Shown piece by piece: positions 2,082 to 32,221 of a stretch of 32,221 nucleotides of DNA (position 1 is its first letter; each line of letters begins with the position of its first letter). The position numbers and the translations under genes are program-made. Source of the stretch: Candidatus Neomarinimicrobiota bacterium (lineage in GTDB: Bacteria; Fidelibacterota; Marinisomatia; Marinisomatales; S15-B10); the NCBI GenBank assembly GCA_012964825.1, contig DTTI01000044.1, positions 1 through 32,221 of the forward strand. The letters run 5' to 3'. A model generated the notes under the pieces. That model was given only the letters and a program-made list of their open reading frames with translations, was not told the origin of the DNA and made no database searches.

Positions 2082-2146
2082 AGCAAAATCATTGTTAATG
2101 AAGGAATCTACACATCATCGCTTGTAATAATGAAAAAGGAGCAGCT

Positions 2147-5452: not shown

Positions 5453-5461
5453 GAGCACCTG

Positions 5462-8311
5462 TTAACGAACGATGAGAAGTTTTTTCGTCGACATAAAACC
5501 GGGCGCTTCCATTCTGTAAAAATAGACACCTGAAGCAAAGCCGCGGCCGTTAAGAAAATAGGTATAGCTTCCCGGTGCCAAAAACTTGTCATGGAGGCGG
5601 CTCACCTCTCTCCCGGTAATGTCATAGAGCTTCAGAACGACTCGTCCCTCTCTTGCAACATCAAATTTAATGAGGGTTTCCGGGTTGAAAGGATTTGGCA
5701 TATTCTGACTCAGCACGAACTGCTCAGGCAGACCTATGTCGTCCTCAACACCAGCCCCCTCAATGTCGATGGCGGTGCGAATAAGGAGATCCCCTTCATA
5801 ACCAAGATCGGAAAGGGGGGCCCATTCGTCAACCTCTGTGTAATAGTAGCTTCGCTCTTTCGATTCGCTACCGGTGTCAATACTGAGCGGCGGTGAATCG
5901 GCCGTCTCACCCCATGCAACATAGAATTGTCCCTCAGTGAAGGTCAACCCCGCGCCAGAAACATCTTTGATATTCCAACCCTGAGTCACCGTAGGAAAAA
6001 TGAGTGTTGCGCCTATGTGATTGCCAGGCATACCATCATTGCCGTCATCATCAAAGATGGCCAGGTAGGTCAGTCCTCCTGCTTCTCTGGAGTGATATTT
6101 TAAGGTCATGAGTGTGATTGGGAAAATGTTAGAGCTGAATCTTACAGCGTACCAACTATTCTCACCCAAGGACGTTGCACCGGTCTCCGATGTGCCGTCA
6201 TCATAAGCTACTTCCCTGACCGTGTCAGATCTGGGCCGGATGGTCACAGTAGAAGACATTGCACTTTCCACTTCATCAGAGGCTCCAGAGTTGTAAATCG
6301 ATGTAATCCCATAGGTGTAATCAACTGCTATGAGAACCAACGAATCAGTAAAACTTGTTTTCGTCAAATATGTACCGTCCGGCAAAGGCTCGGCGAAAGA
6401 CTCGCCCGGGGCGTGGCGGTAAACGTTGTAGACAGCATTCTGTCCGCCTTGTGTAGAAACCTCAACTCGGATCCCCCACTCCCCATCGGGAAGATTGTTG
6501 TTCTCTGCAGTGGTTCTCCACCGTTGCCAGGGCCCGTCTCCAAGTTTGGTCCAGGAATGTTCACTTGGGGTTGCATCTTCATCGAGCCCAGCATGCAAAA
6601 GGGTGTCTATTGCCTGAGCAATGAGGAAGTCACCCTCAAATTCCCAGTCCACTTCAATCTCGTTCCATACTGCCGAAGACCGGGACATGGTGATGTCGTA
6701 GCTCGGCTCGTCCGCCGGCTCTCCGCCCGCCACTTCATAACCGTAGACCGTAACCGTGCTCACACTGTCTGCGCCTATAAGTTTCACTTTTTTAACTATG
6801 GCAGAGGAACCGAAAGGCATCTTGAAAACATTGCCACAGAGGCCAGTACCCCCAGTCATAAAGATAGCATCTTCAAATGAACCGTCATCATAGGCTACTT
6901 CACCATCAATATCACCGCTGGGAACAGCCTCCCACGAAAGTTCCACCGTTCCGCCGCCTGTGGAGACGGTTAATCCCTTGGGAGCAGGAGCAGTTTCCAC
7001 CAGCGATTTTTTCCAGACATGGAGATCGTCAATATATAGGCCCATGCTGGTGTTGCCTGTATCCCCATCGTGGTTGTCATCAGATTTGAATTCCCAGGCT
7101 ACACGAATTCTGTTTCCTGCCCATTGGGACAAATCCAGCTGAACGTTCGTATCTTCATTGAAGGGACTTCCAGGACCATAGATTTCCCAGCCGTAGGTAC
7201 CAGGACGACCATCGGTGCCGTAATCATAAGTAACGGCGTAGGAAGGTGCGCTAAGTTCAGCTCCGGCCCACCACGACTTGGTTCCGTCGTATCCGTTGTA
7301 TTCGTTCATGTTCCAATGAGATCCCCCAGCGGGTGTGAGGACTACCTTATCGTCAGCATTGTCGTAGAGCAATGTATCCGAGCTGTTGGATACCAAAACT
7401 TCATCCACATAGAAACCACTTCTGTACAGCGTGTTATCATCCGCCGTGCTCCAACCTGGATCAGACGCAAAAACAAACCGGATTTTCACGGTATCACCGC
7501 TAAATGAGCTCAGATCAAACTCTGCGTCAACCCAGTCGTCAATTTTGTCCGTCCAGCCCGGAACGTTGCACTGGTCCAGGTTGTACTGAAAACCAAAACA
7601 GCTACTACATTCGTAGCTTGGAGTTCCTTCAATTGTAGTCCACGACATACCCTGGTCTTTTGAAACCTGAACGTTAGCGGCATCCCAACCATTTAGAACA
7701 CAACCGCTGTCATCCGTGTAAGGCAGACCAGATATTGACTCAAGGCGATAAAGCAGTTTGAATGTTAGTTTGTAATCATTGCTGGTGATCTCAAGTTCCG
7801 GGGAGAGGAGATATTCCACCCATTCATTGGAGTATCCCCTGAGAGAATTGTCCATATCCTGAACCCAAAGCCTGTAATAATCTTCAAGAGAACCGTCACC
7901 ATTTCCGTCTGAATCGAGCATCTCAGCCCAGACTGCAAACGAAAAATGGAGTTCTTCCAGTTCAGCGTCAATTTCAGGCAGTTGAATTATGGGGCTTAAC
8001 AATGTGTCATTCTCATCTATCCCTACAGCATGATGAAAACTGTGGGTAGGGCTGTTTGAAGTCTCGGTGGTGATTTTCCAGGTGCCCTGAGTTTCCCAGT
8101 CTGCAACCCCAGACTCAAGGTCGTCGTAGAAAATGCTGGTTGTGTCCGGAAGTACAGCTGGTTGCGTACCGTGTATCAGAGTCTTTCCTGAAACATTTCG
8201 GAAGGCAGACAGACGTTTTTCTCCGCCTTTGGTTGCTTTTTTTTCATTACCGTTGGCAGTTACAATCATCAGCAGAAAAACAGGAAAAAGTCTCAGTAAC
8301 AAACTTTTCAT
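5462..8311 (-). CDS. Large secreted multi-domain protein (MAM/choice-of-anchor-like) with T9SS sorting domain
   Basis: The 949-residue product has a signal peptide (about 1-21) and an ATG preceded by a GGAG ribosome site. The N-terminal half has repeated beta-sandwich modules of the type seen beside immune-inhibitor-A peptidases and in choice-of-anchor domains: a DDLESGVADW start, then GFYVDEVLV near 300 and GLYIDDLHVWKK near 430. A fibronectin-III-like segment (APKGLTV...VELSWEAV) follows near 440. Two later beta-rich modules both start with VAYDDG. The last about 85 residues are the NMPNPFNPET sorting domain. I see no HExxH or other protease motif, so it is probably a binding or adhesion protein rather than an enzyme. 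Its stop lies just before the S8 protease start, suggesting co-transcription. Confidence 0.87.
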   Translation of the reverse strand: MKSLLLRLFPVFLLMIVTANGNEKKATKGGEKRLSAFRNVSGKTLIHGTQPAVLPDTTSIFYDDLESGVADWETQGTWKITTETSNSPTHSFHHAVGIDENDTLLSPIIQLPEIDAELEELHFSFAVWAEMLDSDGNGDGSLEDYYRLWVQDMDNSLRGYSNEWVEYLLSPELEITSNDYKLTFKLLYRLESISGLPYTDDSGCVLNGWDAANVQVSKDQGMSWTTIEGTPSYECSSCFGFQYNLDQCNVPGWTDKIDDWVDAEFDLSSFSGDTVKIRFVFASDPGWSTADDNTLYRSGFYVDEVLVSNSSDTLLYDNADDKVVLTPAGGSHWNMNEYNGYDGTKSWWAGAELSAPSYAVTYDYGTDGRPGTYGWEIYGPGSPFNEDTNVQLDLSQWAGNRIRVAWEFKSDDNHDGDTGNTSMGLYIDDLHVWKKSLVETAPAPKGLTVSTGGGTVELSWEAVPSGDIDGEVAYDDGSFEDAIFMTGGTGLCGNVFKMPFGSSAIVKKVKLIGADSVSTVTVYGYEVAGGEPADEPSYDITMSRSSAVWNEIEVDWEFEGDFLIAQAIDTLLHAGLDEDATPSEHSWTKLGDGPWQRWRTTAENNNLPDGEWGIRVEVSTQGGQNAVYNVYRHAPGESFAEPLPDGTYLTKTSFTDSLVLIAVDYTYGITSIYNSGASDEVESAMSSTVTIRPRSDTVREVAYDDGTSETGATSLGENSWYAVRFSSNIFPITLMTLKYHSREAGGLTYLAIFDDDGNDGMPGNHIGATLIFPTVTQGWNIKDVSGAGLTFTEGQFYVAWGETADSPPLSIDTGSESKERSYYYTEVDEWAPLSDLGYEGDLLIRTAIDIEGAGVEDDIGLPEQFVLSQNMPNPFNPETLIKFDVAREGRVVLKLYDITGREVSRLHDKFLAPGSYTYFLNGRGFASGVYFYRMEAPGFMSTKKLLIVR

Positions 8312-8363
8312 AACATCTCCAAGATTAAAGGATATTCTAAGTCCATACTTTATCTGAATTAGG

Positions 8364-10325
8364 CTACTTGAGCAGGATCATTTTCTTCGTCTTCCTTATG
8401 CTGCCTGCTTGAAGACGATAAATATAAATACCTGCCGGAGAATTGGCCCCGTTCCACGAAACGGCGTGATTACCGGCATCTGACGGACCCTTCAGCAGGG
8501 TTGTCACTTCGTTACCTAACAAGTCGTAAACTGTCAGTGAAACTTCGGCTTTCTCCGGGAGGGTAAATTCTATGACCGTAACAGGGTTGAACGGATTGGG
8601 ATAGTTCTGCGCCAGATCAATACGGGCTGGCAAAAGATCTGAATCTTCCACAGTAAGAGGCTTAAGTGTCACTTTGGAAAAGTATACCCTGTTCTTGAAA
8701 TCAGCCTGTGACGGTGAACCCCCATCAGAAGGCGTGACGGTCTGAACATTGTAGTCCGGGCTCTCGAACATAATATAGGCCTCATTATCGGTGGCTATGA
8801 ATGCCAGCTGAGGATAAACCTCATCAAGCTCCCTGTCCCTGGTGTCTGTAACGTTGACTGGGGCTTCCCAGGTTTTCCCGCCATCGATAGAGCGCTGAAC
8901 AAAGACATCATAATTAAAATAGGTTTCGGTGGTGTCTGCAACGGCCATGTAGCCCACATACATGACGTGAGGGTCATCTTTACTGATGGCGGCTGACGGG
9001 TAGATCCTATGCCAGTTATTGTCCCAGAAAAAAGAAATCTGGGTGGAGTTGACAAAATAGATCTCCCAACTCTCGGGATCGGAAGGATCATTAGAAAAAA
9101 AGTGGTAAATGCCGCAAGATTCATCTATAGCAGGATAGACACTGCCGCTGGAACTTGGAATTGCCGTAGAGAAAATGTGCAGACCTCCGGAAGGGTCCGT
9201 CTTCAGTTCGACTTCGTAGGATATAAACGGACTTTCAAATACGACTGTATCAAACTTTGCTATCATCAAGCTGTCACTGAAAAAGCGGTCTTTCAGAATA
9301 TCACGAGGGATATAGTAATAGTCCGTTCCATCCATACCAGTTCCACCCTCCCCACTCCAGCTTGCACCGTAATCAGTTGTTTTTCGTATCATGACGGTGT
9401 GAGATGAATCGGGGGATTGACCCTTGAAATAACTAGAAACTGCAGCATAGCCGGTTCCGCTTTCGTTAATATCTATAACCACATTTGAGGTGAATCCACC
9501 TTGCATGAAATCAGCTTCATCAAAGAGCAATATGGGATCGTCAAAAGTAAAGTAACCGGACATATTTTTATTGGAGTGGTAAAGCCACCTGTTGCTTGAA
9601 GTTTCCTGAAGGGAATTTGACCACTGGCTGTAAGCAGCATTCAGCACCGGTGTGTCACCGTCATGGGCCAGGGAGACGGAACCGACCCAATTGTCCGGCG
9701 GGTCGCACGGTGTAGGGCTACAACCGTTGTTGAGATCTACTGGAGGTGAAAAGAAAGAACCACCTCCATAATAAAATTCATCCCAACTGTAGACTGGTCG
9801 GCCACCATACAGACCGCCCCCAGTGCCTGTCTGGGTATATTCGTTCCAAACAATGTAAGGGTAATCACTACCGGCTACTGCACTGGGATAGCGACCCATT
9901 TTCTCGGCCGGTTCAATGATGTTCAAATCTGAGTAGGTAGTAAACAACTCGCCATCCTCAGACCATGCCGCCCCCATATAGCCCGAATTTATGGGGTCAT
10001 TGAAGCTCCACTGCCTGTAGGCCATGATGAAACCGTTGTCAGGATGATATGACAGCGGTGTGGTGTTACCAACCACCATACCGTACCCGTTCCGGGAAGA
10101 ATCCACCAGAACTGTGGATACAGAAGATGTGGAACGGTAAACCCTGGGCGAATGCGAGTTTGAGTTACTATAAATAAGTGTTGGTTCGCCCTCCAACTGG
10201 AACTTCATGGTGGCTGGTTGTACCTGTGCCTGCATCCGCTTCGGTACCGGACTTTGTGCCAGAAGTGTGGCGGCAAAACAGACAAAAAGAATAAGTGTAC
10301 TTTTTTTCAAAGCTGACTCTTGCAT
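8364..10325 (-). CDS. Secreted Asp-box (BNR/sialidase-like) repeat protein with T9SS sorting domain
   Basis: The 653-residue product has a signal peptide (about residues 8-24, ending LLAQ). Asp-box motifs typical of sialidase-fold beta-propellers are visible: TDYGASW in the middle and SIDGGKTW near 485, with a more degenerate WSEDGELFTT near 115. The last about 85 residues form the sorting domain with NYPNPFNPVT, VYDLLGNEV and a terminal KKMILLK. I do not see the sialidase arginine triad clearly, so enzymatic activity is not claimed; many such propellers only bind glycans. It is the first of four consecutive sorting-domain genes in transcription order and follows clpP by 45 bases. The ATG at 10325 was taken; a TTG near codon 6 is an alternative. 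Confidence 0.85.
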   Translation of the reverse strand: MQESALKKSTLILFVCFAATLLAQSPVPKRMQAQVQPATMKFQLEGEPTLIYSNSNSHSPRVYRSTSSVSTVLVDSSRNGYGMVVGNTTPLSYHPDNGFIMAYRQWSFNDPINSGYMGAAWSEDGELFTTYSDLNIIEPAEKMGRYPSAVAGSDYPYIVWNEYTQTGTGGGLYGGRPVYSWDEFYYGGGSFFSPPVDLNNGCSPTPCDPPDNWVGSVSLAHDGDTPVLNAAYSQWSNSLQETSSNRWLYHSNKNMSGYFTFDDPILLFDEADFMQGGFTSNVVIDINESGTGYAAVSSYFKGQSPDSSHTVMIRKTTDYGASWSGEGGTGMDGTDYYYIPRDILKDRFFSDSLMIAKFDTVVFESPFISYEVELKTDPSGGLHIFSTAIPSSSGSVYPAIDESCGIYHFFSNDPSDPESWEIYFVNSTQISFFWDNNWHRIYPSAAISKDDPHVMYVGYMAVADTTETYFNYDVFVQRSIDGGKTWEAPVNVTDTRDRELDEVYPQLAFIATDNEAYIMFESPDYNVQTVTPSDGGSPSQADFKNRVYFSKVTLKPLTVEDSDLLPARIDLAQNYPNPFNPVTVIEFTLPEKAEVSLTVYDLLGNEVTTLLKGPSDAGNHAVSWNGANSPAGIYIYRLQAGSIRKTKKMILLK

Positions 10326-19340: not shown

Positions 19341-20735
19341 TTATCCCATTAACGGCCAAAACAGATGAATAAAAAGCAGCAATACAACAATGGACATGAC
19401 AGTCATTTTCCAGCCGCCACGGAGAAAATCCGACGGTTTTATCAGTCCGCTGGAATGAATGATCATGCAGGTTGGAGATGCCACAACAGTGAGATAGGCG
19501 AATGCCGATGCTAGAGCGGTTGAGAGTGCTATCATAACTGCGTCACCGCCCATATTCAGAACGATTGGTCCAAGAACAGCGACCGTGGCTGCATTACTTA
19601 GGAAATTTGTCAATCCCGCGGTAAGAAAAACCGAGACGAAGGATCTTGAAAAATCGATATTGGGGGAAATCACTCCAAGTCTTTCGATAACATTGTTCGC
19701 AACCCAGAGCGCGGCACCGGTATCCTTCATCTGAATCCCGATGGAGATGGCCGCACCGAAAAGCATGATAACACCCCAGTTGGTGTTCCGGTTCAGATCT
19801 CGCCATTCTACCAGTCCGATCACAAGATATATAACTACACCCAAGAGCGCCACGATACCGAGACCGATCTTTGGGCTCAAAAATACCCACCCCAAAAAGA
19901 CCAAAATAAACACCCCAATAGCGGTTACCTGACTCCCGGTGATGTCGCCGGATTTTGCCACCTGAACCTTCAATTTTCTCACAGCTGAATCCAGGATCGT
20001 TTTTTCGGGACGAAACGTCCACCATAGGATCATAGTGGCAAGGGGAATCTCAATGAGAAGTATGGGGTAGGCATATTTCATCCATTCCAGATAGGAGATG
20101 TTTCCCATACCAAATTGAGAAAGATATCCAATCATTATCACATTTCGGCCCCCGCCTGAAGGTGTCCCTATGGAACCCATGGCACTGCCGTATGCAATCG
20201 AAAAGAGGATAAGAGTAGTGAGACCGGTGACCTTTTTGGGATCGTGACTGGTGTGCCGAACCAGTGTCAGGCCTACAGGCATCATCATGGCTGTCACCGT
20301 ATGTTCCCCTATAAAAGAAGAAAGCAGAGCACAGACAGCAACGAAACCAGCGATGATGCGCCACGTTTTGTGCCCCGTAATATTGATAATTCCCAAGGCA
20401 AGACGCGTATCAAGACCTTGAGAAACGATGGCCACCGCCAGCATGAGTGAACCCATAATAAAGAAAACAGCGTCACTCATGAACGAAGAGGCAACCTGGT
20501 TTGGCGTAGCAATCCCGAACAGTACCTGAAAGACCAAAATGAGCATCGCCACTGCAGGGAGTGGAATGGGCTCAAAAATGATAAGAATAATAGTGGAAAG
20601 AACAATAATGAGAGTATGATACCCTTCAGACGTCAGGCCGTGAGGCGTAGGGAAAAGGTACAGGACGGTACCGAGAAAAAGAGTAATAAGGAGCCACTTT
20701 TTTTGAGTGGCCCAGTAGATGATATTTAAGATCAC
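19341..20735 (-). CDS. SLC13/DASS-family anion permease
   Basis: The 464-residue protein has 11-12 predicted TM segments. Family signatures are IGTPSGGGRNVIM in the first half and FLSNAATVAVLGPI in the second, matching the two repeated Ser-Asn-Thr-type motifs that bind sodium and substrate; the usual Asn-Thr positions are altered. The end has ASPTCMIIHSSG. The family carries dicarboxylates, sulfate or related anions, usually with sodium. It starts with GTG, with no strong ribosome site. It lies 41 bases downstream of the molybdoenzyme gene, no terminator is visible between them, and so it may belong to the sulfur operon and move sulfate or sulfite. That substrate is inference. Confidence 0.9.
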   Translation of the reverse strand: MILNIIYWATQKKWLLITLFLGTVLYLFPTPHGLTSEGYHTLIIVLSTIILIIFEPIPLPAVAMLILVFQVLFGIATPNQVASSFMSDAVFFIMGSLMLAVAIVSQGLDTRLALGIINITGHKTWRIIAGFVAVCALLSSFIGEHTVTAMMMPVGLTLVRHTSHDPKKVTGLTTLILFSIAYGSAMGSIGTPSGGGRNVIMIGYLSQFGMGNISYLEWMKYAYPILLIEIPLATMILWWTFRPEKTILDSAVRKLKVQVAKSGDITGSQVTAIGVFILVFLGWVFLSPKIGLGIVALLGVVIYLVIGLVEWRDLNRNTNWGVIMLFGAAISIGIQMKDTGAALWVANNVIERLGVISPNIDFSRSFVSVFLTAGLTNFLSNAATVAVLGPIVLNMGGDAVMIALSTALASAFAYLTVVASPTCMIIHSSGLIKPSDFLRGGWKMTVMSIVVLLLFIHLFWPLMG

Positions 20736-20776: not shown

Positions 20777-23617
20777 CTATTTTACATAATAGGATTCATC
20801 AGCTGGTCGGAGGGTTCTCGCCATCCAAAGTGGTCGTCGAAGACCTCCGGGTCCCGGACCCGGCCGCGTCATCTCCAACCACTCTTTGTAGATCTCAAAA
20901 GACCTGTTCGTGTCCACCTGAATATCTCCATATTTCTCATTTGGGCCAGGAAGGGAGAGTCTCACCTTCTGATGCCAGCAATGCATCCCTGAAATAGGGT
21001 CTGGGTGAACAGGAAAAGTAATATTCTGGTGAACACCGCCATCCCGCCACCAGATCCGTTTTGAATCTGAATCGCCGCTTTCAAAGGGCTGAACCAACTC
21101 CGATAGTTTCATCTTCCATTTGCCTTCCTGTGACTCTTCCATTTTTACCGTACTGGTCATCCAGCTGTTGCCCGAGGGATCCTGTGACCTGCGCCAGCGG
21201 CCTGTATGGTGGGAACAGGCCACCACATCAGGTTTGATGGCTTCCGTGATCCACACCTTATCGATAAAATAACCAATATCTGTTTCAACTTTCACAAGAT
21301 CGCCTGACCGCTTCAATCCGATGTGGATCGCTGTCTTTGGGTGCATCCAGACTGGGTTTCGGTGTGAAATCTCCGCTAGCCATTTGGCATTGCCTGACCT
21401 GCTGTGAATTAGTGTGGGCAAACGGAATGTGGGCACCAAAACATACTCATTCCTAGATCGGTCTAGGCTGTCCGGATGGATATGACTCTTTATGTAGCCT
21501 GGAATTGTCTGGTCATTCCACTTCCACCGAGCCATGGTATCGGAATAGAATTCCTGCTTTTTGGACGGGGTGGGGAAACCACACACAGCTGTACCGTTAT
21601 CACGAATTGCTACCACCTTGCCATCCTTAATAAATTGACCGAAATCGTTCAGCTCCGCCCCTTCCGTATCAGCGGTACCGAGATGCTTAGCGTAAGAAGA
21701 GGCTTCTACCTCAAAGGCGCCGAATTTCCGCATATATTCCAACGGGGAAAGATTTTCATTTTTCGCTGCCCCTGTAAGACCAGGAATGTTTTCAAAGATG
21801 TACTGATAATATTCATCAATGTTGATCTTTTCACCATTCCGGTAAGGGGACTTGAAATGGTCCCGTATACCCAACGATTCATCGGGGTCCATCTTCCAGG
21901 AAAGCTCGATCCAGAATTCATCCTCTTCCCACACCTCACCGGGGTTCACCTCGTGGGTGAACTGAACCTCTCTCCCTTCCCGCCGAGCATACTCTCTCAA
22001 TACCGGTTGGCGAAAGGCGATCCAGACAGAGGAATGTGTTTCATAGGAGTTGAGATCGTGGCGTTCGCTGGCGTGGCCCATGGGCAGAACATAATCAGCC
22101 CAGTAGGCAGTCTCGTTCCAGGTGGGTGTCAGGGCAACATGACATTTGATTTTGGACTCATCCCGTAGTACCTCGATCCAACTGAACCCGTCCGGATAGG
22201 TCCAGACAGGATTAAAGACCCGTGTGAAATAAACATCAAGTTCTCCCCTGCCATCTTTGAGGAAGTGCGGAAGAAGAAAACTCAGTTCATGATGTGCCAA
22301 GGGATATTCCATGGGGTACTGGAGAATATTCCAGAATTTTTGTGCCGGTGGCGTGTCAAAGAATGTCGGTTTGAACTTGTTCCATCCGCTTGGTGAGGTC
22401 CCTCCCTCCGTACCCACACTCCCGGTCAGAACGTTGAGAAAATGGAGACACCGGGCCACCTGCCAGCCACCTAAATTACCGCTTCCCGCTGAACGCCAGT
22501 TGTGGGTTGCCAGCTGGGTACCCGCTTCAGCCACGTGCTGTGCCGCTTCAACAATTTTTTCCGCCTCCACCCCAGCTTCTTGGGCGGCGAACTGAGGTGT
22601 GAATTCGGCATATTCCTCTTTTATCCGTTTAATGAAATTGTCGAAAATGACCTCATCCCCGGGATGGACCTTCTGAAGATAGTCGTGCCAGTTCACCCAC
22701 GTCTCCATGAATTGTCTATCGTACCTACCTTCATCCAGGATGATCTTTGCCATAGACAGTAGAACAGCCGCTTCCGATCCGGGATATGTGGGCAGCCAGA
22801 TATCGGCCATACTGGCTGTATTGGAGAGGCGCGGATCCATCACAATAAGTTTTGCTCCGTTCATCATCCCCTCAATAATCCGCTGGGCATGTGGATTGAA
22901 ATAGTGGCCGGTTTCAAGATGAGAACTGATGAGGAGAATAGTCTTGGCATTGGCGTGATCGGGAGACGGGCGGTCAAAAAAGTGCCACAAAGCGTACCCT
23001 AGCCGGGCACCGGCGGAGCAGATGTTTGTGTGTGAATTGTGGCCGTCCACACCCCAGGCCTGGATTACTCGCTCGGTATAACCCTCGTGTCCCGGGCGAC
23101 CCACATGATAAACAACGGAGTTGTGACGCTTTGCTTTCAGGGAATTGTGTATCTGCCCAGCAATGTCGTCCAAGGCGGCTTCCCAGGATACTTTCTCCCA
23201 CTGACCGGACCCTCTCTCCCCTTTCCTTTTCAGGGGATAAAGAATGCGCTCCTCATCGTTGATCTGGTTAATGGTGGCAGGGCCTTTGGCACAAAGTCGC
23301 CCCCGGCTGGCTGGGTGGTAAGGATTTCCCTCAAATTTCCGGACATTACCGGACTGCTTGTCCACGTAAGCCAGTAGACCACAGGCAGATTCGCAGTTAA
23401 AACAGGTAGTGGGAACAATGGAATAATTTTTCTTTTCCCGCCGCGGCCAGGAACCAGCGTCATATTCCGTCCAGTCATGCCACTGTTCCGGAGACGGATA
23501 TTTGGAAAAATCACCTTCAGAAACGGGCAGGTCGCCTGGAGTCGGTTCAATGGTTTCCAAAATTCCAAGCGATTCGCAAGCTTTTTCTATTAACGATTTT
23601 TTCAGACTGGTTGTCAC
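20777..23617 (-). CDS. Molybdopterin oxidoreductase catalytic subunit (Psr/Phs/Soe-like)
   Basis: The 946-residue protein belongs to the DMSO-reductase (CISM) family. It has an N-terminal [4Fe-4S] site with Cys72, 75, 79 and 109 (CxxCxxxC...LCAKG). Cys200 in NICSAGARLG aligns with the cysteine Mo ligand of Psr/Phs/Nap-type enzymes, not Ser or Asp. The dinucleotide-binding domain spans about 725-900. No twin-arginine signal precedes the cluster; the only RR (59-60, SWPRREKK) lies too far in and lacks a hydrophobic stretch. So it is probably cytoplasmic, like the sulfite dehydrogenase SoeA, rather than periplasmic PsrA. The start is GTG with no clear ribosome site, three bases after the FeS/NrfD gene. 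The substrate (polysulfide, thiosulfate or sulfite) is undecided. Confidence 0.93.
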   Translation of the reverse strand: MTTSLKKSLIEKACESLGILETIEPTPGDLPVSEGDFSKYPSPEQWHDWTEYDAGSWPRREKKNYSIVPTTCFNCESACGLLAYVDKQSGNVRKFEGNPYHPASRGRLCAKGPATINQINDEERILYPLKRKGERGSGQWEKVSWEAALDDIAGQIHNSLKAKRHNSVVYHVGRPGHEGYTERVIQAWGVDGHNSHTNICSAGARLGYALWHFFDRPSPDHANAKTILLISSHLETGHYFNPHAQRIIEGMMNGAKLIVMDPRLSNTASMADIWLPTYPGSEAAVLLSMAKIILDEGRYDRQFMETWVNWHDYLQKVHPGDEVIFDNFIKRIKEEYAEFTPQFAAQEAGVEAEKIVEAAQHVAEAGTQLATHNWRSAGSGNLGGWQVARCLHFLNVLTGSVGTEGGTSPSGWNKFKPTFFDTPPAQKFWNILQYPMEYPLAHHELSFLLPHFLKDGRGELDVYFTRVFNPVWTYPDGFSWIEVLRDESKIKCHVALTPTWNETAYWADYVLPMGHASERHDLNSYETHSSVWIAFRQPVLREYARREGREVQFTHEVNPGEVWEEDEFWIELSWKMDPDESLGIRDHFKSPYRNGEKINIDEYYQYIFENIPGLTGAAKNENLSPLEYMRKFGAFEVEASSYAKHLGTADTEGAELNDFGQFIKDGKVVAIRDNGTAVCGFPTPSKKQEFYSDTMARWKWNDQTIPGYIKSHIHPDSLDRSRNEYVLVPTFRLPTLIHSRSGNAKWLAEISHRNPVWMHPKTAIHIGLKRSGDLVKVETDIGYFIDKVWITEAIKPDVVACSHHTGRWRRSQDPSGNSWMTSTVKMEESQEGKWKMKLSELVQPFESGDSDSKRIWWRDGGVHQNITFPVHPDPISGMHCWHQKVRLSLPGPNEKYGDIQVDTNRSFEIYKEWLEMTRPGPGPGGLRRPLWMARTLRPADESYYVK

Positions 23618-23620
23618 AGG

Positions 23621-25216
23621 TTAACTCAAGGCTATCAGTTGAGGGACTCTAATCCAGATATGTTCCGTTACAAGAATTCCAGCAAGAAGTACCAGCACAG
23701 AGATCTGAATCGGAACGACCGTCACGCCGACAAACAAAATGATCAGAGGGATGACTCTTGTCAGCCCGATTGCCATCCAGAAGGGTGCTGCATACCGTCC
23801 ACGAAGGATCATCTGAGCGGCGGTCCGGGCGTCATCGGTCAGTCTTGAGGAAGTAAGCTCTGCCGCGAAAATAGCGAGATTAAGAAGAAGCAAACCCACC
23901 ATAAATAAAGCAAGTCCCGTTGAAATCCCGCCCGTTAGCAGTGCAATACCGGCTCCGCCGGCCAGAAGGGCGTGTATAACCATCTGATAAGGGGCCATAT
24001 GAGACTGCCAGAAATCCCGCCCCTTGGCCTGGGCGAAAAGGAAGGCGGTATAAACGGCAGAAAAAAGAGCCAGGGCCGCACCTACCCACTCAAGCCAGGC
24101 GAGGTTCATAAGGTTCAGATAACTGTTCAAAAGAAGCAGTGTCAGCACACCTCCAAAGCACACAAGGCCGTAGGCCCCTTTCACCAACCAGGAGGTCCAT
24201 TGAGGCCGGAGAATGACATAAAGAAACCGCCTTGGCTGGTCCAAATCCTTGACCAACAGGACGGTGGTAAGCAGTAAAAATATGAGTGAACCCCAAAGGG
24301 AGTTTATCTCGGCAGCAGGAGAAAATGTTGCCCACCCCATAAGTTTGGAGAAAAAAGTCATAAAGAAAAGTCCGCTGGACATGGCCTTTGTCCAGACATA
24401 GGCTGAAACCTCCCATCCCCACAAAACACCTTTGCTGGGACTATCATAGACCCGGCGCGCATCACCGGATTTAAGTGTTTCAACAATTTCGTCAGGGGAG
24501 TTGCCTTTCTCTCTTTTTGCCCCCGCCTCCATGGCGAGCTGGATGAGCATATCTTTGGGATCTTTTTCGTTGGCCTTCTGTTCGGCAAAGTGGGAAAAAT
24601 GACCTACACCTTTATACTGTTCACTCCAGAGGTACTGGTCGTCAGGCTTCGCCGACATAGGATCCAGAGAAGCTTTGTCACCATTGATATAATAAAGTTT
24701 TGGTTTTGTCCCCTTCTCCGGTTTCCGGACCGTAACAGGCTCATTCTTCACCAGCTGGGAAATATTGGATTCTTCATTGTCCAAATCACCGAAAACAATG
24801 GCCTCTTCCGGGCAGACCACCACACAGGAAGGCTCTAACCCCACATCAATTCGGTGTGCACAAAAATTGCACTTTTCTGCCACGTGGTCGTCCGGGTCAA
24901 TATAAAGAGCATCATAAGGGCATGCCTGCATGCACGACTTGCAGGCGATACACCGTTGAGTGTCGAAATCGACAATACCGTTATCCCGATAATAAAGCGC
25001 GCTGGTAGGACATATTTCTACGCAGGGTGCTTCCTCACAATGGTTGCAGCGCAAAACAGAAAAGAGGCGCTGAGTGTCGGGGAAAGACCCCTTTTCTACA
25101 TACTTTACCCAGGTCCGGTTCACACCAATGGGCACCTCATGTTCGGACTTGCAGGCTACCGTACAGGCGTGGCAGCCAATACATTTCCTGTTATCGATGA
25201 GGAACCCGAGGTTCAT
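23621..25216 (-). CDS. Fused four-cluster ferredoxin and NrfD-type membrane subunit
   Basis: The 531-residue protein combines two subunits that are separate in most PsrABC or NrfCD systems. Residues 1-150 are a DmsB/PsrB-type ferredoxin with four [4Fe-4S] cysteine sets: 12/15/18/22, 57/60/65/69, 89/92/95/99 and 116/119/131/135. A charged linker (about 150-265) leads to an NrfD/PsrC-like membrane part of about eight helices (270-531) with the DLDQPRRF...WLVKGAYGL hallmark. It would pass electrons between the quinone pool and the Mo subunit. The ferredoxin has no signal peptide, so it should face the cytoplasm if the Mo subunit does. The start shares ATGA with the stop of the gene at 25213. Confidence 0.94.
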   Translation of the reverse strand: MNLGFLIDNRKCIGCHACTVACKSEHEVPIGVNRTWVKYVEKGSFPDTQRLFSVLRCNHCEEAPCVEICPTSALYYRDNGIVDFDTQRCIACKSCMQACPYDALYIDPDDHVAEKCNFCAHRIDVGLEPSCVVVCPEEAIVFGDLDNEESNISQLVKNEPVTVRKPEKGTKPKLYYINGDKASLDPMSAKPDDQYLWSEQYKGVGHFSHFAEQKANEKDPKDMLIQLAMEAGAKREKGNSPDEIVETLKSGDARRVYDSPSKGVLWGWEVSAYVWTKAMSSGLFFMTFFSKLMGWATFSPAAEINSLWGSLIFLLLTTVLLVKDLDQPRRFLYVILRPQWTSWLVKGAYGLVCFGGVLTLLLLNSYLNLMNLAWLEWVGAALALFSAVYTAFLFAQAKGRDFWQSHMAPYQMVIHALLAGGAGIALLTGGISTGLALFMVGLLLLNLAIFAAELTSSRLTDDARTAAQMILRGRYAAPFWMAIGLTRVIPLIILFVGVTVVPIQISVLVLLAGILVTEHIWIRVPQLIALS

Positions 25217-26130
25217 CTTCCTAACTCCAAAACAGAATTTTCAATATGTTTTGCCAGCTTTTTCAGCTTGGAGACCTGCCGACGGGTCAAATCGGGAAAT
25301 CCTGCAGGGATACGAAATAGGGGTGCTGGGGTAAAAATCCGTCCCTCAACTATCGCAATTTGCCAGGGATAAAAGGGTGTTCTTTTACGTTCATCCCGAT
25401 CCAAAATTTCAGCAATTTCACTTTCCTGAGGAATCTGGACACCAAAAAGTGTGGCATCCTTCCGCATGATATCAAACCTGTACAATTTTCCCAACCCCTT
25501 GGAGCTCTCTAAACTTTCTTCCACAAACTTAACAGCATCGACATGTTGTTCAAACTGCCCCAGTTCAATCATTTCATCACGGGTGGGGTAACGCCGAGAA
25601 TGCCGGTAGGTTTTCAGCTTTTCCGAAGTGAGTGGCTCAGACGCCCCAAAGGGGCGCATGAATCTTCCTCTCAACTGTGGTAACAGTCGGGGCAGGTCCG
25701 TTTTGAATTCCCCAACTGCTTTGCCCACTTTTGCGAAATCATCTTGCAAATAAAGATTCCCCCAGTAATCGATATTGGGAACCGAGAGATAAACCATATC
25801 TCCCTTCAAATCCAAAGCCAGGTGTAAGACACCTATAAAAAGCCCATAGTCGCCGCCATTCCTGGCGGCCTTTTTCAGATGTTTCGTTGTAATAATGAAC
25901 ATGTATCTGCCGGAATCATCAACAGGCCTGTATCTGCCCAAGATTTCCACATCATTCATAAAGAATTTTTGAATAATAGCTTCTTCAGTACCGTCAAAGT
26001 TTTTTCCCGTTTCTCCAAGAAGGATATAAGGCTGGAAGGTTTCCGATTGAGAAAAACCAGAGGTAGTTGCCAACAAAAGAGAAAAATAAAGTGACAGAGT
26101 TAAAAAGAAAAACCGGTCAGCTATTGTCAT
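25213..26130 (-). CDS. Exported protein of unknown function in the sulfur operon
   Basis: I choose the ATG at 26130 (305 residues): its first 27 residues form a clean signal peptide (hydrophobic core FFFLTLSLYFSLLLA). The earlier ATG at 26184 would put 18 charged residues before it inside the upstream gene. The mature protein is alpha/beta with conserved-looking segments ILGRYRPVDDSGRYMFIIT, HLALDLKGDMVYLSVPNIDYWGNLY and YPTRDEMIELGQFEQHV, and a proline/arginine-rich end. No metal, heme or cysteine motif is seen and I do not recognise the family. It overlaps the dioxygenase gene by 14 bases and the ferredoxin gene by 4, so it is firmly part of the operon. A periplasmic partner next to cytoplasmic enzymes is odd and deserves attention. 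Confidence 0.8.
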   Translation of the reverse strand: MTIADRFFFLTLSLYFSLLLATTSGFSQSETFQPYILLGETGKNFDGTEEAIIQKFFMNDVEILGRYRPVDDSGRYMFIITTKHLKKAARNGGDYGLFIGVLHLALDLKGDMVYLSVPNIDYWGNLYLQDDFAKVGKAVGEFKTDLPRLLPQLRGRFMRPFGASEPLTSEKLKTYRHSRRYPTRDEMIELGQFEQHVDAVKFVEESLESSKGLGKLYRFDIMRKDATLFGVQIPQESEIAEILDRDERKRTPFYPWQIAIVEGRIFTPAPLFRIPAGFPDLTRRQVSKLKKLAKHIENSVLELGR

Positions 26131-27268
26131 AGTGGCTTGCCGCACATTCATTTTTTCCAAGATCCATAATATCCGCTTCTTCATCTGTTACATTAATGAG
26201 CCCACGGTTGACTTGCTTAATATCGATATAGACTTCCGGCATTTCACGCATATGGTCAAAAATGAACTGAACAAATTCATTTTCCGAAGCGAGAGTAAAA
26301 ATAGGATTATTTTCCCGCAACTTTTTCAACGGCGCCACAAAACGAAGGTCCTCATTCGCCTCTTCCCAGGTGACATAATGGGCCGGTAGAACGGCGGCAT
26401 CACCGGGCAGTTCGGCATATTGGTGAATAAGGGTTTTGTATAGATCACAAACCCACTTTTCCGCCTTGCCACCGAGATCCGGCCTGCCGGCTGAGATAAT
26501 AAACAAGGTGTCACCCGTGATGAGATATTTTCCGTCAATGAAGTAGGTAACACTCCCTTCCGTATGGCCCGGTGTATGATAAACATCCATTTGAGGGCCA
26601 TCACCGCATAGGGTCACCTTTTCTTGATGCTCAAGAGAAACATAACTGAAGGGGGAATCGGGGAAATCCAGTTTATGAACCAGCATTTCAGCTTTGTCAT
26701 CACCAGAAATCTCCATTCCACCGGAAAGGTGATCAGCATGGGCGTGGGTCTCCACCACCTGGGTAATGATAGCGTCGTGTGACTGAGCAAACCGGGTATA
26801 GAAATTGATATTTCGTGATGGGTCCACCACGGCCATCTGACTTTTATAAACCACACCGTAACTGAGGCACGCTTTTCCGGGACGAATGAATTGGTAAAGG
26901 CCGTAGTCGTCACTTTCCGGGTTAATTCTTACGGGCGTCAGCAGTTCTCCCCAGGTCTTTATGCCGCCGGACAGGTAGCCCACATCACTGAAACCGTTGG
27001 CGGTGAGAATGTCACCCACATACTGGGCTGACCCCTCTTTGGCACAGACAATTTTCACAGGTTTCTCTTTCGGTATCCTTGCCACGGAAGCTTTCTCTTC
27101 CTCAATAAAATCAAAATACGGTATGTTGGACATTTCAAAGGTGTAAGGACTTTCCACCTGGAAACTGCTGAAATCATCCTCGTTTCTCACGTCCAGCAGG
27201 TGGAAATCGGTCTTATTGATTAAATCGCTAAAAAGGTCTTCAGAAGAATAAACGTAGGACCTGGACAT
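26117..27268 (-). CDS. Rhodanese-persulfide dioxygenase (ETHE1-like) fusion
   Basis: With the ATG at 27268 (TGATG overlap with the DsrE-like stop) the protein has 383 residues. Residues 5-112 are a rhodanese domain with the active loop Cys75-Ala-Lys-Glu-Gly-Ser. Residues about 115-383 are a metallo-beta-lactamase fold of the ETHE1/persulfide dioxygenase type: His175, His177, Asp179 and His180 in THAHADH, His231/His235 in HTPGHTEGS, Asp253 in TGDT, GRPDLGG and His297. These enzymes use iron and O2 to turn a persulfide into sulfite. The order here is rhodanese first, the opposite of the common dioxygenase-first fusions such as CstB-type proteins. Activity in this organism is not shown. Confidence 0.93.
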   Translation of the reverse strand: MSRSYVYSSEDLFSDLINKTDFHLLDVRNEDDFSSFQVESPYTFEMSNIPYFDFIEEEKASVARIPKEKPVKIVCAKEGSAQYVGDILTANGFSDVGYLSGGIKTWGELLTPVRINPESDDYGLYQFIRPGKACLSYGVVYKSQMAVVDPSRNINFYTRFAQSHDAIITQVVETHAHADHLSGGMEISGDDKAEMLVHKLDFPDSPFSYVSLEHQEKVTLCGDGPQMDVYHTPGHTEGSVTYFIDGKYLITGDTLFIISAGRPDLGGKAEKWVCDLYKTLIHQYAELPGDAAVLPAHYVTWEEANEDLRFVAPLKKLRENNPIFTLASENEFVQFIFDHMREMPEVYIDIKQVNRGLINVTDEEADIMDLGKNECAASHYDNS

Positions 27269-27789
27269 CAAATAAAAAGCTGGATATCCGCTTCACAGAC
27301 AAATTCAAGAAAAGTTGCTGCACCGCCAATGTCCACACCATCAATAAAGTCATCATTGCTGAAACCGAATACATCCATGGTCATTTGGCAACCGATAAGT
27401 TAACATCACTTTCCAGGTATATGTCCCGTAGTTCTTCGATGGTGGCCACACCTTTCTTTTTAAAGGTCTGCTTCATGAGAGAGGTTGCCACAGTTTCGAA
27501 GCCAGGCACGTTCCCCATATAGAATATTAGGCATTGGCCACTCTATCTGCTGGAATCCGTCAGAACCAAACGGCATCTTCATGGGCATTGCAGGGTTAGC
27601 GTGAGGCGCTACTTTGGGTTTCAGGTTTTTTTTAAGCAGTGTCAAACCGTAAAAGGTGAAGAATACGCCCACCTTCATCTCCATGGCAGCCGCTGTGGAA
27701 GCGAGAATGAACGGCGGATACGCCCAGTCCAATGTTCCTTTGGAGGCGATGAGTGCCATTCTTTTTTGTTTGTCAGTAGTTTCACTCAT
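27268..27789 (-). pseudogene. DsrE/DsrF-like (DrsE2-type) sulfur carrier, two compensating frameshifts
   Basis: The N-terminal part, read from the ATG at 27789 with an AGGAGG ribosome site, is a DsrE-like protein (IASKGTLDWAYPPFILASTA, VGVFFTFYGLTLLKK, NPAMPMKMPF). After PNIL (about 27517-27522) one extra base shifts the frame into MGNVPGFETVATSLMKQTF and KKKGVATIEELRD. Near 27393-27397 one base is missing and the original frame resumes with GCQMTMDVFGFSNDDFIDGV...GGAATFLEF. Repaired, the product is about 173 residues with the conserved GCQMTMD cysteine that carries sulfane sulfur. All three pieces keep family conservation, so sequence errors seem likelier than decay. Role: cytoplasmic sulfur carrier with TusA and rhodanese. 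Confidence 0.8.
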
Positions 27790-27807
27790 TGTTCTGTCCT
27801 CCTTTTC

Positions 27808-28044
27808 TTAAGATTTTTTTAGGAAAAAAGTGAATTGACCATCCTTCGCGACTGATTTCAGCAACTCGTTGCCAGTCCTTTTGACCCAAGCGGTTAGATC
27901 ATTCACTGATCCGGGATCACTTGAAATCATTTTAAGCACCTCTCCTGTGTTGAGTCCATCCATGGCCTTTTTTGTTTTCAGAACCGGCAATGGACAGTTC
28001 AATCCAGAGCAGTCCAGTAAATAATCTTCTTGATAATTTGACAT
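27808..28044 (-). CDS. tusA: TusA/SirA-family sulfur carrier
   Basis: The 78-residue protein has the TusA fold: LDCSGLNCPLPVLKTKKAM with active Cys in CPLPV near residue 17, then GEVLKMISSDPGS and a WVKRTGNELL helix. Its ATG at 28044 follows a strong GGGGAGG ribosome site that overlaps the stop region of the arsR-type gene upstream, which fixes the start. TusA proteins carry persulfide sulfur between enzymes in the cytoplasm. Here the partners in the operon are the DsrE-like protein and the rhodanese-dioxygenase. The symbol is used for family membership rather than a proven tRNA-thiolation role. Confidence 0.92.
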   Translation of the reverse strand: MSNYQEDYLLDCSGLNCPLPVLKTKKAMDGLNTGEVLKMISSDPGSVNDLTAWVKRTGNELLKSVAKDGQFTFFLKKS

Positions 28045-28045
28045 A

Positions 28046-28393
28046 TTACCTCCCCTTTTCTTCAGTTTCAAACATGCCCAGTTCCCACTCTCCCGCTTCA
28101 ACTTTATGTTGACACTCAGAGACACAGTCCAATATCTTGAATATGAACTGGGAGGCAATGGAATAGTAATATGTGGTCCCCTGCCGTCGGTATTTCACAA
28201 TTCCCCGGCTATGCATATAGCGTAGATGCTGTGACGCAAGAGGCTGAGAAACATTCAGATGTTCCTGGATCTGACCCACGGACTTCTCCCTCGTGTCCAG
28301 AAATTCAATGATCTTCAGGCGCTGAGGATGTCCCAAAGCCTTGATTACATGCGAAGCCTGCTGGAAGAATTCTACAGAAAGAGAATTATTCAT
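28046..28393 (-). CDS. ArsR-family HTH regulator, likely persulfide- or redox-sensing
   Basis: The 115-residue protein has a winged helix-turn-helix core: ASHVIKALGHPQRLKIIEFL, then VGQIQEHLNVSQPLASQHLRYMHSRGIV and the wing KYRRQGTTYYYSIA. The start is the ATG at 28393, since a more upstream in-frame start would lie in the promoter. Only two cysteines occur, Cys90 and Cys94 (DCVSEC), in the C-terminal helix. Sulfide-responsive SqrR/BigR proteins sense through two cysteines, but theirs lie in different places (known for that family), so this pair may be an alternative sensor or a metal site. It heads the operon and probably controls it. TusA follows after one base. Confidence 0.9.
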   Translation of the reverse strand: MNNSLSVEFFQQASHVIKALGHPQRLKIIEFLDTREKSVGQIQEHLNVSQPLASQHLRYMHSRGIVKYRRQGTTYYYSIASQFIFKILDCVSECQHKVEAGEWELGMFETEEKGR

Positions 28394-28412: not shown

Positions 28413-28428
28413 ATTCCATGCAATGATT
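28413..28428. promoter_or_regulatory. Candidate ArsR-type operator (ATTC-N8-GATT)
   Basis: ATTC at 28413-28416 and GATT at 28425-28428 are eight bases apart, one base off the ATTC-N8-GAAT element that I recall being described for SqrR. It covers the expected transcription start (about 28424), just downstream of the -10 box of the minus-strand promoter, where a repressor would block initiation. This is a single imperfect match, so it is tentative. Confidence 0.35.
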
Positions 28429-28430
28429 GA

Positions 28431-28459
28431 TATATAACACTTTTCTTATATTGAGTCAA
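28431..28459 (-). promoter_or_regulatory. Sigma70-type promoter of the sulfur operon
   Basis: On the minus strand TTGACT (28459-28454) and TATATA (28436-28431) are separated by 17 bases, near consensus. Transcription would start near 28424, about 30 bases before the regulator ATG at 28393. The promoter lies in the gap shared with the divergent mobA gene, whose own promoter is not clear; TATATT at 28447-28452 is a possible -10 on the plus strand. Confidence 0.65.
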
Positions 28460-28516
28460 GTGATAATGAGAGCAAGGGATAGATGGTACCTCTTTCGTAT
28501 TTTACCTGTTGAAGAA

Positions 28517-29089
28517 ATGTCCCCCCTGATCCCAGCCACAGCCGGTATCCTCATTGGCGGCCAGAGCCGCCGGTTCGGTTCACCCAAATGGAAAGTCAAG
28601 GTCGGCGGTGAGACTGTGCTGGACCGGCTGTGGCAAGTGTGCGGAAGGTTCGAAGAGAGAATTGTCATCGGCAAGGAGAAACCGGCTGATTTAGACAAGC
28701 CGTTTCATAAAGATGAGCTGGAAGGCCAAGCGCCCATCCTGGGGCTCTATACTTTACTGAAAAACAGCGTTCACGAATGGAATCTGCTGCTCTCCTGCGA
28801 TCTGCCCCTTATTACAGCAAGTCTCCTTGAGAAAATCTGGGAGAACCGGGACAGTGAAAAAGATATCATAGCTCCCGAGTCTGATGCCCACCTTCAAGTG
28901 ACTTGCGCCTTTTATCACCGTAGACTTGCTGAGACCGTTGAGGCTTTCATTTCGAATGGCCAACTCAGCCTTTATCACTTTGTCAAGACTGTAAAATGCA
29001 ATAAGGTGTCTATGCCTGAGAAACAATTTTTCAATATGAATGCTCCGGAAGATTTAGGCACCGCTGAAAAACTGCTAAGAAATGAGTGA
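28517..29089 (+). CDS. mobA: Molybdenum cofactor guanylyltransferase
   Basis: The product has 190 residues from the ATG at 28517, which places the nucleotide-binding signature AGILIGGQSRRFGSPKWKV (about residues 8-26) near the N-terminus as usual for MobA. Earlier starts (28427, TTG; 28466, ATG) would add 17-30 residues with no family match. LLLSCDLPLIT near 95-105 is the metal-binding Asp motif, followed by a variable Lys/His region and FFNMNAPEDL near the end. MobA joins GMP to molybdopterin to form the MGD cofactor of DMSO-reductase-family enzymes, so its place divergent from the molybdoenzyme operon makes functional sense. The stop overlaps the DUF167 start by 8 bases. Confidence 0.92.
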   Translation: MSPLIPATAGILIGGQSRRFGSPKWKVKVGGETVLDRLWQVCGRFEERIVIGKEKPADLDKPFHKDELEGQAPILGLYTLLKNSVHEWNLLLSCDLPLITASLLEKIWENRDSEKDIIAPESDAHLQVTCAFYHRRLAETVEAFISNGQLSLYHFVKTVKCNKVSMPEKQFFNMNAPEDLGTAEKLLRNE

Positions 29090-31576: not shown

Positions 31577-32221
31577 TCAGAAGGGCCAAAAGACGGGAAT
31601 GAGAAATGTTGCCAAAATCCAGAAAAGAATGTTCAGGGGTGTCCCCACTTTTATAAAATCAGAGAACCGGTACTGACCGGGACCATACACCATGAGATTT
31701 GTCGTGTAACCAATAGGTGTGATGAAAGATGTGGAAGCACCAAAGGCCACTGCAAAAATGAACGGCCTCACGTCTACGCCCATCTGGCCGGCAACAGAAA
31801 AGGCCACAGGAACGAGAACAATGGCAGCTGTATTATTGGACATGATGGACGTAATCACTGCTGCCACAAAAAAAAGGGAAGACATAGCTGCCCTGGGAGC
31901 CATGTCCGAATCGAACATATTGCCGAAAGTGGTGATGGAGGAGCCGAGGATATGGGCAGCGCCAGACCGCTCCATGGCAATACCAACAGGGATGAAAGCC
32001 GCTATCATTACTATTACAGACCAGTTTACTGACTGATAAGCCTCCTGCGGGGTGATGGCGCCTACCAGCAGAAGAATCACTGTCCCTATAAGTGCAGCCT
32101 GGAGAATATCTACAACACCGGTAGCGGCAATCAGCATTATGAGCGGTATAACGGCGATGGCCAGCCACCAGAATCGCACCTTGTGAAGACTGATGTCATG
32201 CTCTTGAAGGATGGCCAGATC
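31577..32221 (-). CDS. SLC13/DASS-family permease, C-terminal part (partial)
   Basis: The frame stays open to the right edge, so the gene starts outside the window; about 214 residues are visible. The first visible residues LAILQEHDISLHK look like the end of a TrkA-C (RCK) domain, which in long SLC13 permeases sits between the two membrane halves. The rest is the second membrane half, with MSNNTAAIVLVP (the Ser-Asn-Asn-Thr motif) and TPIGYTTNLMVYGPGQYRF, well-conserved transport motifs. The family carries sulfate or dicarboxylates. It is not a close match to the permease at 19341-20735, which has no TrkA-C insert. Confidence 0.88.
   Translation of the reverse strand, partial: DLAILQEHDISLHKVRFWWLAIAVIPLIMLIAATGVVDILQAALIGTVILLLVGAITPQEAYQSVNWSVIVMIAAFIPVGIAMERSGAAHILGSSITTFGNMFDSDMAPRAAMSSLFFVAAVITSIMSNNTAAIVLVPVAFSVAGQMGVDVRPFIFAVAFGASTSFITPIGYTTNLMVYGPGQYRFSDFIKVGTPLNILFWILATFLIPVFWPF

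Follow-up and report, generated by a model that had tools for sequence, protein, structure and literature searches.

A predicted sulfane-sulfur oxidation operon of Neomarinimicrobiota in which a persulfide dioxygenase gene and an sHdr block alternate before a Soe-like molybdoenzyme

We analysed a 32,221-nt stretch of DNA, hereafter the window (contig DTTI01000044.1 of GenBank assembly GCA_012964825.1; C44 in our numbering), from a metagenome-assembled genome (MAG) of Candidatus Neomarinimicrobiota, 2.2-Mb in size and 97.6%-complete. Seven minus-strand genes between positions 28393 and 20777 probably form an operon for two-step cytoplasmic sulfane-sulfur oxidation, in which a molybdoenzyme complex (catalytic subunit MoA and fused subunit BC) would take sulfite to sulfate; from sequence comparison the complex is best read as a Soe-like sulfite:quinone oxidoreductase, not as a polysulfide reductase. 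The evidence is above all an exchange of parts: in this phylum a shared operon frame, TusA-DsrE2 ... BC-MoA, holds either a single gene for a rhodanese-persulfide dioxygenase (RhdPDO) or a sHdr-LbpA-Etf-lipoate block.

Families were assigned with Pfam and NCBIfam profiles. In the direction of transcription, the run comprises an ArsR/SmtB-type regulator of 115 aa (28046..28393; PF01022, NF033788 above cut-off, and alignment); the sulfur carrier TusA (27808..28044, 78 aa; PF01206 at 5.4e-24 for 27808-28059), whose ATG start at 28044 is preceded by GGGGAGG, resembling a ribosome-binding site; a disrupted sulfur carrier DsrE2 (27272..27789); RhdPDO (26117..27271; an N-terminal rhodanese and a metallo-beta-lactamase (MBL) domain of the persulfide dioxygenase (PDO) type, from profiles and alignment); a 323-aa exported protein without known family (25213..26184; hydrophobic N-terminus at 21-39); BC (23621..25216), a four-cluster ferredoxin with 16 cysteines fused to an NrfD-type membrane subunit; and MoA (20777..23617, 946 aa; PF04879, PF00384, PF01568), a molybdopterin catalytic subunit predicted to be cytoplasmic. 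The intergenic gaps are 1, 18, 0, -68, -4 and 3 nt. An earlier sequence-only reading had described this run, and profiles and gaps confirmed its position, strand, tight spacing and families. It had also called the operon complete and promoter-led, neither of which held: DsrE2 is broken by two 1-nt indels, and sigma-70-like sites are not above chance in number (8 seen, 11.8 +/- 2.7 expected from shuffles).

The cluster is real and conserved beyond this contig. A genome of another genus in the same family (G003, locus L014) has the identical order ArsR-TusA-DsrE2-RhdPDO-Exp-BC-MoA-DASS (Exp being the exported protein and DASS an anion transporter), with DsrE2 intact and flanks conserved on both sides, and further families of the phylum share the core; the gene order is thus not peculiar to one contig, which would have told against the sequence-only reading. 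MoA was found in 56 of 245 Neomarinimicrobiota genomes (E up to 1e-100), and 47 loci of the phylum (the window, six others and 40 further ones) were typed. Fourteen are PDO-type: the window, L014, L017, L018 (without DsrE2), L187 (partial), L189, L190, L197 (cut by the contig end), L211, L213-L216 and L218. Eight are sHdr-type (L186, L193, L217, L219, L220, L221, L223 and L225, several cut before the upstream end), 13 have MobA beside BC-MoA without a module, and one, L015, is a scar. The remaining 11 are undecided, mostly at contig ends (L013, L191, L194, L195, L198, L199, L201, L207, L212, L222 and L224); in L198 neither module nor MobA was seen. L222 (G195:C66) runs from TusA-DsrE2-DsrE3 directly into a broken MoA with no BC, possibly a remnant or a misassembly.

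None of the 47 loci holds both modules. The exclusion extends to whole genomes: among 35 genomes picked by their typed loci (14 PDO-type, 8 sHdr-type, 1 scar and 12 without a module), the genomes with HdrB1 are precisely the eight sHdr-type ones, those with RhdPDO (E below 1e-80) are precisely the 14 PDO-type ones, and no second module was found elsewhere in any of them, which adds to the locus typing (Fisher one-sided p 0.009, uncorrected for kinship). The MBL part gave weaker matches in G016, G101, G092 and G192, the last of them an sHdr-type genome; in addition, G013, G151 and G022 have second copies that match more weakly.

Within one genus, g83, both arrangements occupy one chromosomal site. 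The sHdr block is found in G231 and RhdPDO in G230, G233, G227, G229 and G234; common to the six are an 892-aa gene upstream of ArsR and, around the exchanged block, BC, MoA and DASS, and most other genes compared match where sequence exists, G234 departing upstream. The MoA protein of G231 is 93-96% identical to those of four PDO-type members and 87% identical to that of G234. In DNA, G233 and G227 are the closest to G231 in MoA and in the first ~540 nt of BC; the rest of BC shows 62-78% identity, and ArsR, TusA, DsrE2 and the upstream 892-aa gene are also more distant. Given this patchy identity, one clean recombination between the G231 and G230 arrangements was not supported: the site is the same, but more than one simple exchange must lie behind it. 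Behind MoA, both G231 and G230 have two DASS genes and a Usp gene.

On a quick tree of 54 MoA rows, built without the partial rows and with long branches on some of the outgroup rows, the PDO and sHdr labels, borne by 14 and 6 rows, change at least four times; the window and G003, both PDO-type, are sister to G194 and G198, both sHdr-type. In G018 (L112:6661-6966) the 101-aa start of an EMO-like gene lies between DsrE2 and BC and is read as the likely remnant of a lost sHdr block; no HdrB1 match was found elsewhere in that genome.

The alternative module is best seen in G198 (record B25T3L8), whose operon reads ArsR-TusA-DsrE2-DsrE3-LbpA-thioredoxin-like-HdrC1-HdrB1-HdrA-hyp-HdrC2B2-(small protein)-EtfB-EtfA and continues as EMO-like-LbpA2-LplA-LipS-LipS-LplA-radical SAM-exported protein-BC-MoA. 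Domain matches back DsrE, GcvH-like LbpA, CCG/HdrB, HdrA, LipS1 (above cut-off) and one lipoate ligase. HdrA and HdrB fall under the cut-offs of their models, which are methanogen ones, and the 'H' protein has no Pfam match; the genes labelled Etf, second ligase and EMO (Etf membrane oxidoreductase) are what we take them to be by eye. Gene order and domain matches of this module (locus L185), which is absent from the window, agree with type II sHdr, defined as shdrC1B1AHB3 plus etfAB in one cluster (PMC11582611). The sHdr-LbpA pathway yields sulfite (PMC10332631), and in a comparison of 82 sulfur oxidisers every strain with an hdr cluster also has soeABC (PMC6397845).

Two unrelated modules, both expected to make sulfite, thus alternate before the same MoA/BC, and the simplest substrate that they could share is sulfite; this is our main argument, and from it we infer the following scheme. 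TusA, DsrE2 (if functional in the window) and the rhodanese domain would deliver sulfane sulfur, from which the persulfide dioxygenase domain would form sulfite with O2. On the cytoplasmic side, MoA would oxidise this sulfite to sulfate; its electrons would pass through the four clusters of BC and reach quinone at the NrfD half, and DASS would move the anion product. MoA/BC is the constant part; elsewhere in Neomarinimicrobiota the O2-independent type II sHdr-LbpA-Etf-lipoate module takes the place of the O2-dependent one-gene module. The sequence-only reading had proposed the same succession of sulfane-sulfur transfer, sulfite formation and Soe-like oxidation into quinone, which the alternating modules support. 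Its suggestion of an undescribed route was too strong, since SQR/PDO oxidation and Hdr-Soe coupling are published (PMC12345210, PMC11507549, PMC6397845). Among the papers listed in our literature searches we saw no description of the fused SoeBC-type complex, its PDO operon or the PDO/sHdr exchange; what we rate as new is that, within one operon frame, an sHdr cassette stands in for a dioxygenase gene.

The operon could instead serve a heterotroph only to detoxify sulfide and sulfite, with no energy gain. This is compatible with sulfite oxidation by MoA/BC and is the rival that we take most seriously, while thinking it the less probable account. Many of the host groups are regarded as heterotrophic, which speaks for it; on the other side, the last step is by its anatomy membrane-bound and quinone-linked, and what replaces the dioxygenase elsewhere is a full type II sHdr system, Etf included.

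In MoA, the 4Fe-4S cysteines C72, C75, C79 and C109 are invariant among 33 sequences from several phyla, as is C200 in HTNICSAGAR, a candidate ligand to Mo in a part (193-204) that the structure model covers with low confidence. A simple scan found no hydrophobic segment in MoA and inspection of six N-termini by eye no export signal, and the protein is predicted to be cytoplasmic. The N-terminal part of BC has 16 cysteines, 14 of them invariant and two nearly so among 11 aligned sequences; ferredoxin and NrfD are fused in the window and in all 11. No export signal was seen on BC, so the ferredoxin half would lie inside the cell if the prediction holds. The same kind of scan gave BC six hydrophobic segments, fewer than the 8 to 10 helices of NrfD proteins (PMC8076601). 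The complex shares with SoeABC a MopB subunit with N-terminal 4Fe-4S cysteines, a predicted lack of Tat or Sec signals and four 4Fe-4S clusters, but it does not have separate SoeB and SoeC; as BC is fused, we call the complex Soe-like and do not file it as SoeABC.

A similar set of subunits could belong to a polysulfide or thiosulfate reductase (Psr/Phs-like), with sulfur as electron acceptor or store. PhsA is indeed the best NCBIfam model for MoA (PRK15488.1, 199.7 bits), but its cut-off of 694 bits lies far above that score. The Thermus polysulfide/thiosulfate reductase is the best PDB sequence match of MoA and its third structure match; the best 50 of 767 structure matches are assorted MopB enzymes of 14-20% identity, headed by ArrA, and carry no function signal. 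A clade of MoA with PhsA is not rejected, and a Marinimicrobia psrABC has been named polysulfide reductase (PMC5688066), which may be another family than MoA/BC. PsrA and PhsA are, however, periplasmic (PMC10100899); no Tat or other export signal was seen on MoA or BC, and the partner modules are oxidative, one of them requiring O2. We consider the reductase reading improbable, and the polysulfide alternative that the sequence-only reading had offered for the molybdoenzyme is the less supported of its two.

Relatives outside the phylum point the same way as the neighbourhoods within it. The best 80 of 515 MoA relatives at E up to 1e-3 (the named loci, mostly from other phyla) are 64-94% identical, the closest listed being from a Candidatus Neomarinimicrobiota bacterium (94%); by record title these 80 include Bacteroidota, KSB1, Calditrichota, Acidobacteriota, Planctomycetota, Latescibacterota, a spirochaete and SAR324. 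Relatives also occur in the named strains Rhodococcus jostii RHA1, Thermomicrobium roseum, Natrinema and Flavilitoribacter nigricans, and those on plasmids (Thermomicrobium, R. jostii RHA1, haloarchaea) are 53.5-57.2% identical, the haloarchaeal ones 54-56%. BC adjoins MoA in 73 of the 80 named loci, and the BC cluster (median 542 aa, short contig-end members included unchecked) is present in 70. Counted near MoA (within 4 kb; 484 kb) and far from it (beyond; 352 kb), sulfur genes occur in 33 vs 2 loci for SulP, 24 vs 1 for PDO-rhodanese, 6 vs 0 for SQR, and 14 vs 2 and 11 vs 4 for YeeE-like; 48 of the 80 loci have at least one near. On pRHL3 of RHA1, DsrE2-TusA-BC-MoA-NBP35 lie on one strand and Rhd-PDO and ArsR adjacent on the other, and KatS3mg041 has RhdPDO-TusA-DsrE2-BC-MoA. 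In both L127 (Natrinema, a haloarchaeon) and L126 (RHA1, an actinobacterium), the gene immediately after MoA encodes an NBP35/Mrp-type ATP-binding protein. Given this wide sulfur neighbourhood and a formate-dehydrogenase score far under cut-off (TIGR01553, 112.8 vs 814), it is very unlikely that MoA/BC is the formate:quinone oxidoreductase 'FqoABC' of Calisto and Pereira, beside sulfur genes by chance, even with tentative FqoC groups in Actinobacteria, Chlorobi, Crenarchaeota, Chloroflexi and Deltaproteobacteria (PMC8076601) whose taxa partly overlap the MoA clade.

Several observations weigh against sulfite oxidation as the role of MoA/BC and of the operon. In 13 of the 47 loci, BC-MoA stands beside MobA and no sulfur module accompanies it. 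Of the 80 named loci, 32, many of them short contigs, lack any counted sulfur gene near MoA. On the outgroup tree, a small set without a characterised SoeA in which long branches meet (PhsA, DmsA, FdnG, NarG, Azoarcus, Cereibacter), MoA forms its own clade, not firmly placed relative to PhsA, DmsA, FdnG and the Azoarcus homologue, and the MoA+PhsA grouping has p-AU 0.20. DsrE2 is broken in the window assembly. A search with a single SQR query matched 10 of 22 genomes and gave no match in G003, which has the same operon; in the window genome it found a 413-aa SQR-like flavoprotein on C14, 28% identical to the query, with what we take by eye to be the SQR cysteines. Hyphomicrobium denitrificans, which has sHdr, is reported to excrete sulfite, so sHdr is not always paired with a sulfite oxidase. 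Finally, both operon types occur in genomes with a haem-copper oxidase (21 of 22; present in the window genome), so that the exchange is not a simple split in which aerobes use PDO and anaerobes sHdr, a rule that we tried and found unsupported.

The damage to DsrE2 is confined to that gene, the rest of the operon being intact. Aligned to the G003 copy, the window gene has gained one nt and, ~120 nt away, lost one; the two changes compensate each other and leave two pieces, 27460-27789 and 27272-27459, with a stop at 109 aa; relatives have 171-172 aa. The annotatable open reading frame (ORF; 27460-27789) has lost the conserved cysteine of GCQMTMD and scores 99.6 against the NF047629 (DsrE2) cut-off of 210, because it is truncated (the L185 relative scores 219.1). 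A search of 16 genomes found DsrE2 in 8; six of these have it open along almost the full model, G040 has part of it, and in the window genome it is broken. The indels are either an error of the MAG consensus assembly or a recent real lesion; with DsrE2 broken as assembled, the operon is not strictly complete.

In RhdPDO, comparison with residues in PMC11507549 places the iron triad at H176, H232 and D254 and the substrate aspartate at D180; the rhodanese loop is VCAKEGS, and the Blh model NF040641 gives 35.6 bits against a cut-off of 625. The window and G003 keep HxHxDH, which HxQxDY replaces in 11 of 13 aligned Neomarinimicrobiota copies (L017, L018, L189, L190, L197, L211, L213-L216 and L218); the first histidine and the aspartate are retained and two residues of the motif are gone, which would favour a single-metal site. 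ArsR has C-x3-C in its C-terminal helix, the second cysteine being present in 11 of 15 Neomarinimicrobiota rows; by alignment it has only C-terminal-helix cysteines and not the Cys50/Cys116 pair of sHdrR/BigR/SoxR, and it may regulate the operon in response to sulfane sulfur.

The exported protein is not needed for the operon core. Its family occurs in 37 of 245 Neomarinimicrobiota genomes, in two of the 14 PDO-type loci (the window and L014) and, at 29% identity, in sHdr-type L220; five other sHdr-type loci have a different exported protein at that place, with a weak match (13.3 bits, E 0.011). Among 30 loci of the family, three (L132, L135 and L157) have it next to BC, one (L156) next to a DsrE2-like gene and two (L133 and L134, L134 also with an SQR-like gene) next to a MerR-type regulator; in the rest its neighbours are other genes. 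The window copy has no Pfam match at E up to 1, and its single-sequence fold has a mean pLDDT of 34.5. A kinship with DUF302, suggested by eye, was unsupported (hhalign probability 4.8).

Past MoA, the gene run extends to the DASS transporter (19341..20735, minus strand, gap 41 nt; TIGR00785 above cut-off) and then to a Usp gene (gap 71). DASS stands behind MoA in both operon types and is a candidate sulfate/sulfite carrier. It is one of two SLC13-type transporters in the window (19341-20735 and 31577-32221). The divergent neighbour on the plus strand is a MobA-like Mo-cofactor guanylyltransferase (28427..29089; under MobA cut-offs), a gene that flanks BC-MoA also at loci without a sulfur module. 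Positions 1209-10325 encode large secreted proteins with what we take to be NPFNP-type C-terminal sorting domains, which hint at the phylum.

In oxygen-poor ocean waters Marinimicrobia are common, and the part that they play in sulfur cycling is disputed, being given as reduction, oxidation or left unspecified (PMC8359478, PMC5688066). The cassette exchange makes sulfite the likely common intermediate and so points to oxidation, a reading that can be tested with one enzyme. Proteobacterial-type SoeABC is reported absent in Bohai sediments (PMC12345210); if MoA/BC is a sulfite dehydrogenase, surveys seeking the proteobacterial SoeABC may undercount sulfite oxidation. A broader proposition joins three parts: that sulfite-making modules are exchangeable cassettes (a one-gene O2-dependent dioxygenase and a ~17-kb O2-independent sHdr-lipoate block at one site in one phylum and one genus), that many non-proteobacterial phyla have the fused complex as a main sulfite dehydrogenase that has gone unrecognised, and that some Marinimicrobia 'polysulfide reductase' records are MoA/BC running the other way. 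Taken together, we put these at a little under an even chance.

Among known systems, SoeABC (Allochromatium vinosum, Aquifex aeolicus) is like MoA/BC in its cytoplasmic MopB subunit with one 4Fe-4S cluster, its four-cluster ferredoxin and its NrfD anchor, and accompanies enzymes that make sulfite in the cytoplasm, sHdr among them (PMC6397845, PMC8076601); in BC, ferredoxin and NrfD are one polypeptide. SoeC is reported from Proteobacteria, Clostridia and Aquificae (PMC8076601), whereas the relatives of MoA/BC that we found are largely non-proteobacterial. PsrABC/PhsABC have the same molybdoenzyme-ferredoxin-membrane-anchor architecture and differ in their periplasmic location. The SQR-PDO-rhodanese pathway of heterotrophs uses the same rhodanese and persulfide dioxygenase, yielding sulfite; the window has the order N-rhodanese/C-PDO, its operon also encodes TusA/DsrE2 and a presumed sulfite dehydrogenase, and most of the aligned Neomarinimicrobiota RhdPDO copies differ by HxQxDY in place of HxHxDH. 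In sHdr-LbpA (types I and II, studied in H. denitrificans), as in the window, carriers feed a sulfite producer under an ArsR-type regulator; the type II block occupies the same operon frame in other Neomarinimicrobiota, and in the window one dioxygenase gene stands in place of the whole block.

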